Of a DNA stretch of 64,000 nt, positions 4,349 through 12,278 are shown in pieces. The number at the start of each line of letters is the position of its first letter. The first letter of the stretch is position 1. This DNA comes from Massilia sp. H6 (GTDB taxonomy: Bacteria > Pseudomonadota > Gammaproteobacteria > Burkholderiales > Burkholderiaceae_D), in contig NZ_CP103371.1 in the NCBI RefSeq assembly GCF_024802625.1, positions 1,488,001-1,552,000 of the forward strand, given 5' to 3'. Both the position numbers and the translations under genes were made by a program. The notes beneath the pieces are model-generated. The model was given only the letters and a program-made list of their open reading frames with translations. It was not told the origin of the DNA and searched no databases.

Positions 4349-6667
4349 CTAGCAGTTCCCCGCCTGCACCGCCTCTGGCGGAGTCTCTTCTTGCTGCCGG
4401 TGGCCGCTGGCGACCGGCTGGCGGCTTTCGGCGGTCAGTTGCAGTTCGTCGATCTCCGGATCGTCGACGTTGCGCAGTTCGAGGTAGCGATCCAGGGCCT
4501 GGTCGAGGCGGGGCAGCAAGATGCCGCGTTCGCTGGCCAGTGCGCAATAGGCGGGGCGCGCCGCCGCGAAGGCGACCGGTCGTGCATCCAGGCGACTGGC
4601 ATCGACGCCGGCGCGCTCGGCCGCTTTAAGGGCCAGCTCGGCCCAGCTCAGCGCGCCGCCGTTGGACAGGTGCCAGATCCCGGCCTCGCGGTCGACTGCC
4701 AGGTCGAGGCAGGCGTGCACCAGATCTGGCACATAGGTCGGCGTGATGGTCAGGTCGCTCGAGGCGGTAAACGACTCGCCGCGCGCGAGCGCATCGAGTG
4801 CCAGGGTGACGAAATTGTGCTGGTCCCAGGGGCCGAAAAAGGCGCTGGTGCGCACCATGAGCGCGCCCGGATGCTTGTCCAGCACCGCGCTTTCGGCCTC
4901 GGCCTTGCTGCGGCCATAGACACCCAGCGGGGCCACCGGGTCGGATTCGACATAGGGGCGCTGTTGCCGGCCGTCGAATACCAGGTCGCTCGAGAAGGTG
5001 GTGAGGTGCACGCCGTGGCGGGCGCAGGCGGCCGCCAGGATCGCCGGGCCGGCGGTGTTTTCGCGGAAGCAGCGCTCGGCGTCGTTCTCGGCATCGTCAA
5101 CCCGCACATAGCCTGCGGTATTGATGACCGCCCACGGCTGGTGTTCGGCCAGGGCGCGCTCGACCGAATCAATGTCGGCGATGTCCATCTCCTGGCGCGA
5201 CAGCAGGCGGTAGGCGATGTTGCGCTTGCGGCAGACGCGGGCAAAGGCGCGGCCCAGCGTGCCGGTGGCGCCCAGGATCAGGATCGGGGCGGCGCCGGTG
5301 CCGACCAGGCGGTGGCCGTCGGCCGCGATCGAGGTCAGGGCGCTCGGGGTGGCCACCGGCGGATGGCACAGGAAGCGGCCCGGACGGCGCCACCAGCCCT
5401 GGCCGCGCAGCACCGGATGCGATAGCGGCTGGCCGGAAGAGAGCTCTTGCATCATCTTCGCCAGCGCGGTCGGGCGCGGCGCGGGCGAGCGCACGTCGAA
5501 CGGCCCCGGCTCGTAATAGCCCTTGTTCTGCGTGACCAGGCTGTTCCAGTCGAAGGAGCCGAGCAGCGACCAGACGGTCACGGCGCGCACGTCGATGCCG
5601 TTCTGCTGCGACTGCTGAGCCGCTTCCCAGATTTCGAGCAGCCAGCGCAGCTGGTCCTCGCGGTTGGCGTCGATGTGGGCTTCGGTGATCGCCAGCGGGA
5701 TGGCATAGCGGTCCCAGACTTCGGCCAGCAAGGGGGCGATGCCGGGCGTCGGCGTGGCCAGCACGCGCGAGGCTTCGATGTCGGCGCAGGCGATGCCATC
5801 GGCCATGCCGCGGCGGTTGTCCGGAAAGCGCTCCGGACGATGGTCGAGCCAGCGCTCGGAAGTGACGTAGTAATTGACACCGATGATGTCGGGCGGGCAG
5901 GTGTTTTCGCGGAACCACAAAAATTCGGCGGCGTCGATCCCGGTCTTGAGCAGGTAGTTCCAGAGTGCGTGCTCGGGGCCGACCATGCCGCACAACAGGT
6001 CCCAGGCCAGCCAGCGCCGTTCGTTGTAGAACTCGGCAACTGCGGCCATTTCAGGCGTGCCATAGGTCTTGCCGAGGTCGTCGGTCTGGACCAGCTTGGC
6101 ATTCGGGTTGACGGCGCGGATCGCGCGCATCGACAGCACGGTCGCACGGCATTGCACCAGCAGCGCCTCGATGAAGGTGCGGTCGTCGCGGCCATGCGGA
6201 TACCAGACACCGTACAGGCCGGCGAAGCGGGCGGTGGTGCAGGGCTCGTTAACCGGGGTGTAGAGCTCGACCCAGGGATAGCGCGCGGCGACCGCGCCGG
6301 CGTACTCGGCCAGCTGTTGGGCAAAGTCCGGGTCGACCAGGCTGGTATGGCGCGGGCCGCTGCCGTGGTGCACCAGACCGACGATCGGGTTCACGCCGGC
6401 CTCGCGCAGCGCCGCCAGGCGCTCGTCGGGCCAGCTCCAGTCGGCATTCGACAGGCCTTCGGGGGCGGTACGCTCCCAGAGCACGGGATAACGGATGGCG
6501 CGGATGCCAGTGGAGGCGAAGCGTTCGATGTCGCAGGCGCGTCCGGCATGGCCGTTGCGGTCGAGTTGACTGAAATATTCGTCGCGCACGCGGTTAACCG
6601 TGCATTCGAGGCCACCCCACAGTTCCAGGGGGCGGGTTTGGCTGTTCGTGCTCTTTTTTGGATTCAT
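4349..6667 (-). CDS. Fusion protein: GH1-like glycoside hydrolase + RmlD-like dTDP-4-dehydrorhamnose reductase
   Basis: The protein has about 772 residues. Residues ~12-410 resemble family GH1: the acid/base Glu lies in TPVNEP (E141) and the nucleophile Glu in AITEAH (E329). Residues ~460-735 are an RmlD-type extended SDR: GATGTLG nucleotide-binding loop at 466-472 and catalytic YGRSK (Y584, K588). RmlD reduces dTDP-4-keto-rhamnose to dTDP-L-rhamnose. No rmlA, B or C genes are nearby. The start is uncertain: ATG at 6667 is chosen, an ATG four codons upstream (6679) is equally possible, and neither has a strong ribosome site. The substrate of the hydrolase part is unknown; a role in exopolysaccharide or glycan metabolism is inferred. 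Confidence 0.82.
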   Translation of the reverse strand: MNPKKSTNSQTRPLELWGGLECTVNRVRDEYFSQLDRNGHAGRACDIERFASTGIRAIRYPVLWERTAPEGLSNADWSWPDERLAALREAGVNPIVGLVHHGSGPRHTSLVDPDFAQQLAEYAGAVAARYPWVELYTPVNEPCTTARFAGLYGVWYPHGRDDRTFIEALLVQCRATVLSMRAIRAVNPNAKLVQTDDLGKTYGTPEMAAVAEFYNERRWLAWDLLCGMVGPEHALWNYLLKTGIDAAEFLWFRENTCPPDIIGVNYYVTSERWLDHRPERFPDNRRGMADGIACADIEASRVLATPTPGIAPLLAEVWDRYAIPLAITEAHIDANREDQLRWLLEIWEAAQQSQQNGIDVRAVTVWSLLGSFDWNSLVTQNKGYYEPGPFDVRSPAPRPTALAKMMQELSSGQPLSHPVLRGQGWWRRPGRFLCHPPVATPSALTSIAADGHRLVGTGAAPILILGATGTLGRAFARVCRKRNIAYRLLSRQEMDIADIDSVERALAEHQPWAVINTAGYVRVDDAENDAERCFRENTAGPAILAAACARHGVHLTTFSSDLVFDGRQQRPYVESDPVAPLGVYGRSKAEAESAVLDKHPGALMVRTSAFFGPWDQHNFVTLALDALARGESFTASSDLTITPTYVPDLVHACLDLAVDREAGIWHLSNGGALSWAELALKAAERAGVDASRLDARPVAFAAARPAYCALASERGILLPRLDQALDRYLELRNVDDPEIDELQLTAESRQPVASGHRQQEETPPEAVQAGNC

Positions 6668-6804
6668 GACCTTCACCATTCTTAATCTTATTGCAACAAA
6701 AAAACTGCAGGTCGGCAACCCGGTTAACAAATACTAGAAGGGGAGCCGCGCCTGCCAGGTCATGGCGCCGGAAGCGGTTGACAGCAGAGCGTCAACCTGC
6801 AACC

Positions 6805-6864
6805 ATGCAGTCCATGAATTTTCCGAAAGCACATTCTAATTTCCCTGCCTGGTGGCGCTGCTGA
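6805..6864 (+). CDS. Putative Trp-rich leader peptide of trpS (19 aa)
   Basis: A short frame, ATG at 6805 (second in-frame ATG at 6814) to TGA at 6862, encodes a 19-residue peptide that ends Pro-Ala-Trp-Trp-Arg-Cys. The two Trp codons are adjacent (6850-6855) and lie just before the stop, as in classical trp leader peptides. No clear Shine-Dalgarno sequence is seen before either ATG, which is the main weakness. It sits upstream of an intrinsic terminator hairpin and 118 bases ahead of the trpS start. That it is translated and regulatory is an inference. Confidence 0.5.
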   Translation: MQSMNFPKAHSNFPAWWRC

Positions 6865-6933
6865 CAGCGCGCGGCCACGGAAATGATGTGCATTTCAACT
6901 AACGCCGCCTCGATCCGGGTGGCGTTTTCTTTT
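6851..6933 (+). promoter_or_regulatory. Candidate transcription attenuator of trpS
   Basis: Three RNA elements can be read. GCGCTG (6855-6860) pairs with CAGCGC (6865-6870) around the leader stop codon. GCGGC (6871-6875) can pair with GCCGC (6904-6908). AACGCCGCC (6901-6909) pairs with GGGTGGCGTT-type bases 6918-6926 to form a nine-pair stem with one G-T wobble, followed by a T-rich tract (6925-6933), which is an intrinsic terminator. The second pairing would block the terminator. A ribosome stalled on the Trp codons would cover the first hairpin and free 6871-6875, so low Trp-tRNA would favour read-through into trpS. A small hairpin GAAATG/CATTTC (6880-6896) lies between. Confidence 0.5.
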
Positions 6934-6982
6934 GGGGCGCAGGACGATCGGGGCTTTGAAAGAATAAAGCCAAGGAAACACG

Positions 6983-8017
6983 ATGAGCTCGCAAAACCCC
7001 TCCGCACCACCTGCCAACCCTGCGCCAATCATCCTGACCGGTGACCGGCCTACCGGTCCGCTGCACCTCGGCCACTTTGTTGGCAGCCTGCGCAACCGTG
7101 TCGCTTACCAGGACACTTACCGTCAGTTCATCATGCTGGCCGACGCCCAGGCGCTGACCGACAACATGGATGACATTGGTAAGGTACACCGGAACGTTGT
7201 CGAGGTGGCGCTCGATTACCTCGCCTGCGGCATCGACCCGGCCCGGACCACCATCCTGATCCAGTCGCAAATCCCCGAGCTCACCGAGCTCACTTTCTAT
7301 TACCTGAACCTGGTCACGGTGGCGCGCCTGGAGCGCAATCCGACGGTCAAGGCCGAAATCGTCCTGCGCGGTTTCGAGCGCGACATCCCGGCCGGCTTCC
7401 TGACCTATCCGGCCAGCCAGGCCGCCGACATCACCGCCTTCAAGGCCACCGTGGTACCGGTCGGCGACGATCAGATCCCGATGATCGAGCAGTGCAACGA
7501 AATCGTGCGCAAGTTCAATCGCAATGTTGGGCAAGAAATCCTGGTCGAGTGCAAGGCGATCGTGCCTGAAGTAGGCCGCCTGCCGGGCATCGACGGCCGC
7601 GCCAAGATGAGCAAGTCGCTGGGCAACACCATCAACCTCGGCGCCTCCGCCGATGAGATCCGCGCGGCGGTCAAGCAGGTATATACCGATCCGCTGCACC
7701 TGAAGGTGTCCGACCCCGGCCATATCGAAGGCAACGTGGCCTTCATCTATCTCGATGCCTTCGATACCGACAAGGAAGGCCTGGCCGAGATGAAGGCGCA
7801 CTACCAGCGTGGTGGCCTGGGTGACAGTGTCGTCAAGAAGCGCCTGGAAGGCATCTTGCAGGAAATGCTGGCGCCGATCCGCGCCCGCCGCGAAGAATTC
7901 GCCCAGGACCGGGGGCAGGTGATGCAGATGCTCAAGGAAGGCACGATGCGCGCGCGCGAAGTGGCGGCGGCGACGACCGATGAAGTGCGCAAGGCGCTGG
8001 GGCTGTCGTACTTCTGA
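6983..8017 (+). CDS. trpS: Tryptophanyl-tRNA synthetase
   Basis: This 344-residue class I synthetase charges tRNA-Trp with tryptophan in the cytoplasm. The ATP-binding signatures are present: HLGH at residues 28-31 (HIGH motif) and KMSKS at 208-212. The length and the Rossmann fold fit the bacterial TrpRS family. The ATG at 6983 has AAGGAA eight bases upstream. A leader peptide with tandem Trp codons and a terminator hairpin precede it, suggesting control by Trp-tRNA charging. It ends in a hairpin (8043-8065) shared with the convergent DUF3597 gene. Confidence 0.97.

Positions 8018-9668: not shown

Positions 9669-12278
<2,610 letters not shown>

Follow-up and report, generated by a model that had tools for sequence, protein, structure and literature searches.

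The stretch of DNA analysed here (the window: 64,000 nucleotides of the Massilia sp. H6 contig NZ_CP103371.1) carries the gene trpS at positions 6983 to 8017 of the plus strand, preceded by a leader region that contains a small open reading frame (ORF) with tandem Trp codons and a predicted terminator. The gene encodes a TrpRS II-like tryptophanyl-tRNA synthetase (TrpRS) of 344 amino acids and begins with an ATG at 6983, where the original prediction had placed its start. Its assignment rests on a match to the TIGR00233 trpS model (222.7 bits; cut-off 176.75) and on its best matches among solved structures, 1yi8 (E = 1.3e-119) and 2a4m, named TrpRS II (E = 9.1e-118). Both of these structures come from Deinococcus radiodurans. 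The nearest named TrpRS sequences are those of Telluria aromaticivorans (97%) and of Massilia species, among listed matches that may omit the source genome itself. The source genome yields one TrpRS match at E values up to 0.001, namely this trpS; because the ordinary type of TrpRS scores about 1e-37 in relatives, the TrpRS II-like gene is the only TrpRS found in the source genome, whereas several relatives carry both types. An ORF resembling alanyl-tRNA synthetase, as judged by eye from its translation, lies shortly downstream of trpS at 9669-12278.

The leader region and its predicted promoter

The leader ORF (6814-6864, plus strand) comprises 16 codons for the peptide MNFPKAHSNFPAWWRC, and its 3' end reads TGG TGG CGC TGC TGA, the stop codon occupying 6862-6864. 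The tandem TGG codons, the presumed sensor, are found at 6850-6855 just ahead of this stop, as had been noted originally. The frame had been thought to begin at 6805; that start is rejected, as the ATG at 6805 is unconserved and overlaps the predicted -10 element, and the conserved start is the ATG at 6814, invariant in all 29 aligned leaders. A GC-rich inverted repeat stands directly 3' of the Trp codons. The hairpin formerly drawn at 6855-6870 is predicted as a stem of larger extent, since the single-sequence fold of this protector stem (1:2) spans 6850-6877 and encloses the Trp codons; its exact register is uncertain and differs between the single-sequence fold and the consensus fold. The stop codon ends six bases 5' of region 2 (GCGGC, 6871-6875), the candidate antiterminator (2:3) partner of 6904-6908, and an outer helix supported by covariation, P0, would join 6829-6835 to 6885-6891.

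The terminator hairpin 3:4 lies at 6901-6926, with region 3 at 6901-6910 and region 4 at 6917-6926, and is accompanied by the T-tract TTTTCTTTT at 6925-6933. A terminator at 6901-6933 had been predicted with nine pairs; the hairpin and the tract are both present, and the hairpin folds with ten. About 50 nt separate the end of the hairpin from trpS, and the sequence AAGGA at 6972-6976, likely the Shine-Dalgarno (SD) element of trpS, lies outside the hairpin. The same hairpin and T-tract were also considered as the terminator of the upstream gene and rejected as such, that frame (4349-6730) being divergent, on the minus strand.

The -35 box TTGACA (6778-6783, plus strand) is followed after 17 nt by a -10-like AACCAT (6801-6806), a weak match to the consensus, and on sequence and conservation the two would constitute the promoter. 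The box and the ATG at 6814 are about 36 nt apart, and every one of the 29 aligned leaders has both. A looser rule collected 136 leaders with tandem Trp codons (WW leaders). In 107 of them a TTGACA-like box, with one mismatch allowed, stands 34-39 nt before an in-frame ATG, a count somewhat inflated by the preference given to the ATG with a box where several were in frame. Of these boxes 98 stand at 35 or 36 nt from the ATG and few at other distances, and by a hand count 16 of the 29 leaders that have no box carry a TATACT that ends 7 nt upstream of the ATG. SD-like 4-mers precede the leader ATG in 4 of the 136. The fixed distance of the TTGACA-like box and the rarity of SD-like motifs suggest a leaderless message, which, judging from the sequence, probably starts at or near the ATG at 6814, placing this codon at about +1. 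Because the TTGACA box and this ATG are invariant in the aligned leaders, a transcription start downstream of 6864 appears unlikely.

Occurrence among relatives and association with one type of TrpRS

The distribution of the leader was assessed by a strict rule, namely an ATG-initiated ORF of 6-32 codons with WW within its last 12 codons, in the approximately 330-340 nt upstream of the gene. By this rule a WW leader precedes 129 of 190 related trpS loci (the window copy, L001, counted), with 34 of 70 loci in the family set, 65 of 80 in the named-genome set, 13 of 20 in the order set and 17 of 20 in the phylum set, it being understood that the named-genome set may share species with the others and that related genomes are not independent. 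The means of 50 dinucleotide shuffles give expectations of 0.24, 0.4, 0.06 and 0.04 for these four sets, a sum of 0.74. The reverse strand of all 190 upstream regions contains 1 such frame, and the 330 nt before the match at ordinary trpS genes contain none in 20 controls, hand-picked from plus strand matches in the family genome search. The whole arrangement could in principle be a coincidence, a small two-Trp frame that happens to stand near an ordinary terminator, and the window's own antiterminator pairing is weak when taken alone (P = 0.27 against shuffled spacers). However, 129 leaders against 0.74 expected, their absence from the 20 ordinary trpS genes and the constant spacing of the -35-like box in 107 of 136 leaders make such a coincidence scarcely credible.

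The count over the 190 loci is the unselected measure of conservation, as distinct from the aligned set, which was selected by motif. The close alignment began with 80 candidates (the window and 79 named loci), of which 20 were dropped for want of the terminator or Trp-codon motif; 29 of the 60 that passed were retained as non-redundant, and removal of L067 left the 28-row alignment A2. Conservation of the Trp codons and the terminator in the aligned set is therefore partly due to the set having required both motifs. A lack of conservation of the Trp codons and competing stems in relatives had been set beforehand as the result that would count against an attenuator, and the comparison left the attenuator reading standing.

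The TrpRS type encoded in the window was found in 71 of 145 family genomes (E no higher than 1e-118), with 70 of the 71 loci examined, and, at the thresholds used, in 31 of 250 genomes of the order sample, 2 of 229 of the class sample and 27 of 398 of the phylum sample, where each count includes the source genome and those of the order and phylum also include further genomes counted before. The genomes sampled from the window's order, class and phylum all include some with WW leaders. More specifically, in the phylum sample such leaders precede 9 of 9 loci of the window's class, and the eight loci of other classes comprise six with WW, one with a single Trp and one with none. The leader peptide differs between clades except for its start and its Trp codons, with the following Arg in many.

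Departures from the rule are of several kinds. Besides the 65 WW leaders, the named-genome set includes 11 loci where a small ORF has just one Trp close to its end, in several cases apparently by chance, and 4 loci with neither. Across all sets, 28 of the 190 loci are counted as lacking both WW and a single Trp towards the end of a small ORF, the loci listed without either being 22 family, 4 named, 4 order and 2 phylum ones; examples of loci without a Trp leader by the rule are L017, L022, L023, L027, L152, L168, L174 and L192. Six of the listed family loci (L029, L030 and L112-L115) do carry WW, but farther from the stop and outside the strict rule. Single-Trp leaders do exist, such as MNFFTTLLIDWRRS (L018) and MYSSFTLHCGHWRNTYF (L095, Undibacterium), and a single Trp codon was seen in a similar leader position in L018, L020, L026, L067, L087, L093, L095 and L145. 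Upstream of trpS in L120 and L123 no Trp-containing leader ORF is seen by eye or by the rule, but a TTGACA box is there, as is a hairpin resembling a terminator; this may be a decayed attenuator. In L015, L016, L017, L022 and L025, which have the same trpS type, no such leader was seen by eye, and a long GC-rich hairpin with a T-run of the AAAGCCGCCGG type lies upstream.

When 141 family genomes, some of which may have been used to build the model, were searched with a covariance model of 28 close leaders, 29 strong matches (E up to 2.5e-6) resulted, and all 29 lie directly upstream of this trpS type. Six weak matches (E = 0.0009-0.009) lie away from trpS and look like chance; the search took 25 first-look candidates per genome through strict filters, at which weak copies elsewhere could be lost. 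The DNA pattern of Trp codons plus region 2 occurs twice in the source genome, here and elsewhere on the other strand. This tie to one gene bears on the alternative that the short RNA or its peptide acts in trans, as the trpL RNA and peptide of Sinorhizobium meliloti do, with control of trpS in cis being secondary. The probable leaderless start and the terminator at the end of the leader do resemble S. meliloti trpL as described in excerpts of PMC7298713, but the strong matches adjoin one gene only and the peptide varies between clades beyond the start, the Trp codons and, in many, the following Arg, and action in trans as the main function is thus considered very improbable.

No family of Rfam 15 matches in the window at the gathering threshold, and a T-box or other known riboswitch is rejected on this ground. 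The only Rfam match to 6760-7000 at E values up to 5 is RF00513 (Trp_leader), which scores 17.5 bits (E = 0.33) against the leader, below its gathering cut-off of 41; in L181 it reaches 25.6 bits, also below the cut-off.

Pairing within the leader RNA

Folding energies are -16.2 kcal/mol for the terminator (z = -3.99) and -48.4 kcal/mol for the complete leader (z = -4.37). In the close alignment 98.3% of cells of the terminator are paired, in a set selected for the terminator motif, and 89.7% of those of stem 1:2. No covariation was seen for 1:2, 2:3 or 3:4 in close relatives, as these elements are nearly invariant, and RNAalifold likewise reported no double change; stem 1:2 has no double changes in the close alignment. 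The antiterminator pairing of 6871-6875 with 6904-6908, put forward in the original prediction, is upheld on comparative grounds: region 2 and the 2:3 pairing are invariant in 28 of 28 leaders, neither helped nor harmed by covariation. At one position of region 4 both U and C occur opposite an invariant G of region 3, a single site at which the variation fits a second use of region 3.

The outer helix P0 is the element for which the close alignment does show covariation. Its cells are paired in 88.7% of cases versus at most 52.9% for slid partners, with 15 double-change cells versus 5.3 in shuffles and a covariation score of 0.187 versus 0.068 in shuffles, although one slid version scores 0.139 and kinship alone can exceed shuffles without any structure. 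For these three measures 0 of 500 shuffles were as high. Two others do not set P0 apart in this way: 406 of 500 shuffles were as high in the number of pairs showing a double change, and 229 of 500 in further pair types. The 5' arm of P0 overlaps codons of the leader peptide and stops 14 nt short of the first Trp codon. Across clades, P0-like pairing has P < 0.05 in 12 of 33 representatives and is without support in, for example, L095, L141, L144 and L166.

These 33 representatives were chosen by hand, those of the same clade not being independent, and in all of them a region 2 capable of pairing with the 5' arm of the terminator begins 7-17 nt past the last Trp codon, in a search that began 6 nt after it. 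Compared with shuffled spacers, 17 of the 33 have P < 0.05 and two more have 0.050; the 5-bp helix of the window is not significant by this measure. The paired sequences themselves vary by clade: GCGGC/GCCGC in the window, AGGGUGGC/GCCGCCCU in L095, and GGCGGC..CCGG with CCGG..GCUGCC in L103. In the representatives, region 3 was assigned manually because the automatic terminator finder misjudged the window, L024, L125, L154, L157, L160, L166 and L170; in L125 the automatically called ORF was also wrong.

When nascent RNA ending at region 3 is modelled with a ribosome on the Trp codons, the probability of 2:3 is 0.99 or 1.00 in 33 of 33 representatives. For the window it is 0.40 with the ribosome at the stop codon and 0.00 with no ribosome. 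Among the representatives it stays above 0.5 in 16 of 33 when the ribosome has reached the stop and in 12 of 33 without a ribosome; under this simple model the switch would not be clean in every clade. Shuffled spacers reach 0.99 in 271 of 1320 trials, spread over 22 representatives, all of which give 1.000 unshuffled.

Proposed attenuation of trpS and related systems

Features of a trp-type attenuator are found together here: a leader ORF with tandem cognate codons, a predicted intrinsic terminator before the gene and, in 33 of 33 representatives, a candidate antiterminator pairing that would exclude the terminator and lies just beyond a ribosome on the control codons. The layout is conserved and linked to a single gene type, which makes ribosome-mediated attenuation by Trp-tRNA by far the best explanation. 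On comparative sequence evidence the leader very probably senses charged tRNA-Trp through the ribosome that translates it, and controls trpS by attenuating transcription. The original interpretation is thus supported in its main point, having overlooked the start codon, the outer helix, the probable leaderless start, the enzyme type and the breadth of occurrence.

In the proposed mechanism, transcription would begin at or beside the AUG at 6814 and the first ribosome would load on a leaderless message. When Trp-tRNA is scarce, the ribosome would wait on UGG UGG, covering the 5' side of stem 1:2, and region 2 (6871-6875), just past its leading edge, would pair with region 3 (6904-6908), so that the terminator would be too late to form and trpS would be transcribed. 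When Trp-tRNA is plentiful, the ribosome would reach the stop codon and cover region 2, or depart so that P0 and 1:2 re-form; with region 2 hidden in either way, 3:4 would form and transcription would end at about 6933. P0 probably reinforces this off state when the leader carries no ribosome. In the window the RNA beyond a stalled ribosome still folds preferentially as the terminator, from which it follows that antitermination would have to be kinetic.

An alternative is that the leader senses Trp-tRNA but acts mainly on translation or through Rho. A stalled ribosome would then alter how accessible the ribosome-binding site of trpS is, or the access to Rho, and the hairpin (6901-6933) would be a minor stop. 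Three loci with a WW leader (L186, L189, L190) lend this some weight, as in their predicted folds the trpS start region lies in a hairpin, with TATCTCC paired with GGAGATA beside the start; these folds suggest translational control there and that the output part may differ by clade. In L190 a second hairpin followed by TCTCTTTT, which may be a terminator, lies upstream and gives less weight to an exchanged output. In the window, by contrast, the hairpin has an energy far below that of shuffles and runs into its T-tract some 50 nt from trpS, with AAGGA outside it, and a mainly translational or Rho-dependent output is accordingly judged unlikely.

Attenuation of trpS has already been reported in Streptomyces; new here are the wide occurrence among proteobacteria, the start, which is probably leaderless, and the additional helix. 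Attenuators of Streptomyces trpS were reportedly described by Vecchione and Sello in 2010. A survey by Lopatovskaya, Seliverstov and Lyubetsky from about 2010 is said to treat attenuation of synthetase genes and could include some of the leaders considered here. According to extracts of PMC1262725, attenuators were predicted upstream of Streptomyces trpS genes, including trpS2 of S. avermitilis, and extracts of PMC8079986 describe a leaderless trpL2 (MMTRTCTQLWRAA) before trpS in S. lividans. These systems share with the window a Trp leader peptide upstream of trpS, leaderless in S. lividans (PMC8079986). They belong to a different phylum, however, and in the extracts S. lividans has one Trp codon and no uridine-rich stretch is reported, whereas most of the present leaders have two or more Trp codons and the window leader has a U-tracted terminator and a covarying outer helix. 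The likeness to the Streptomyces leader could be convergent. TrpRS1 of Streptomyces is listed as indolmycin-resistant in an excerpt of PMC9437257.

The trp operon attenuator (RF00513) aligns with the window leader in register at the tandem Trp codons and the terminator; here, in contrast, a synthetase gene lies downstream, the start is probably leaderless and P0 is an additional helix. The pheST attenuator of gammaproteobacteria concerns Phe, not Trp. It is also a case of leader-peptide attenuation of a tRNA synthetase operon, and is named in extracts of PMC1262725. In S. meliloti, the trpL RNA begins with the leader ATG, contains Trp codons and acts by attenuation (excerpts of PMC7298713); that leader precedes trpE(G), whereas the present one precedes trpS. 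A putative small leader CDS before trpS in Caulobacter appears in an excerpt of PMC4117421. In the sections of the open-access literature searched, no description of a trpS attenuator in Betaproteobacteria was found, and trpS has 0 occurrences in the main text of Naville and Gautheret 2010 (PMC2965389).

If the attenuator works as drawn, control of TrpRS by its own product through ribosome stalling would also be widespread in proteobacteria and trpS attenuation would be tied to one TrpRS type. A wider reading is offered tentatively, with somewhat more doubt than confidence: the leaderless Trp leader may be a regular companion of TrpRS II-like genes across Pseudomonadota that moved with these genes into scattered lineages, the sensor being kept and the output exchanged (a terminator in many, a hairpin over the trpS start in some). 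In the window's lineage, where this is the sole TrpRS found, the attenuator would then provide feedback control of an essential enzyme. The layout is stable while the peptide and RNA sequences vary by clade, which makes these leaders a good natural set for the study of attenuator evolution and perhaps of a change of output.
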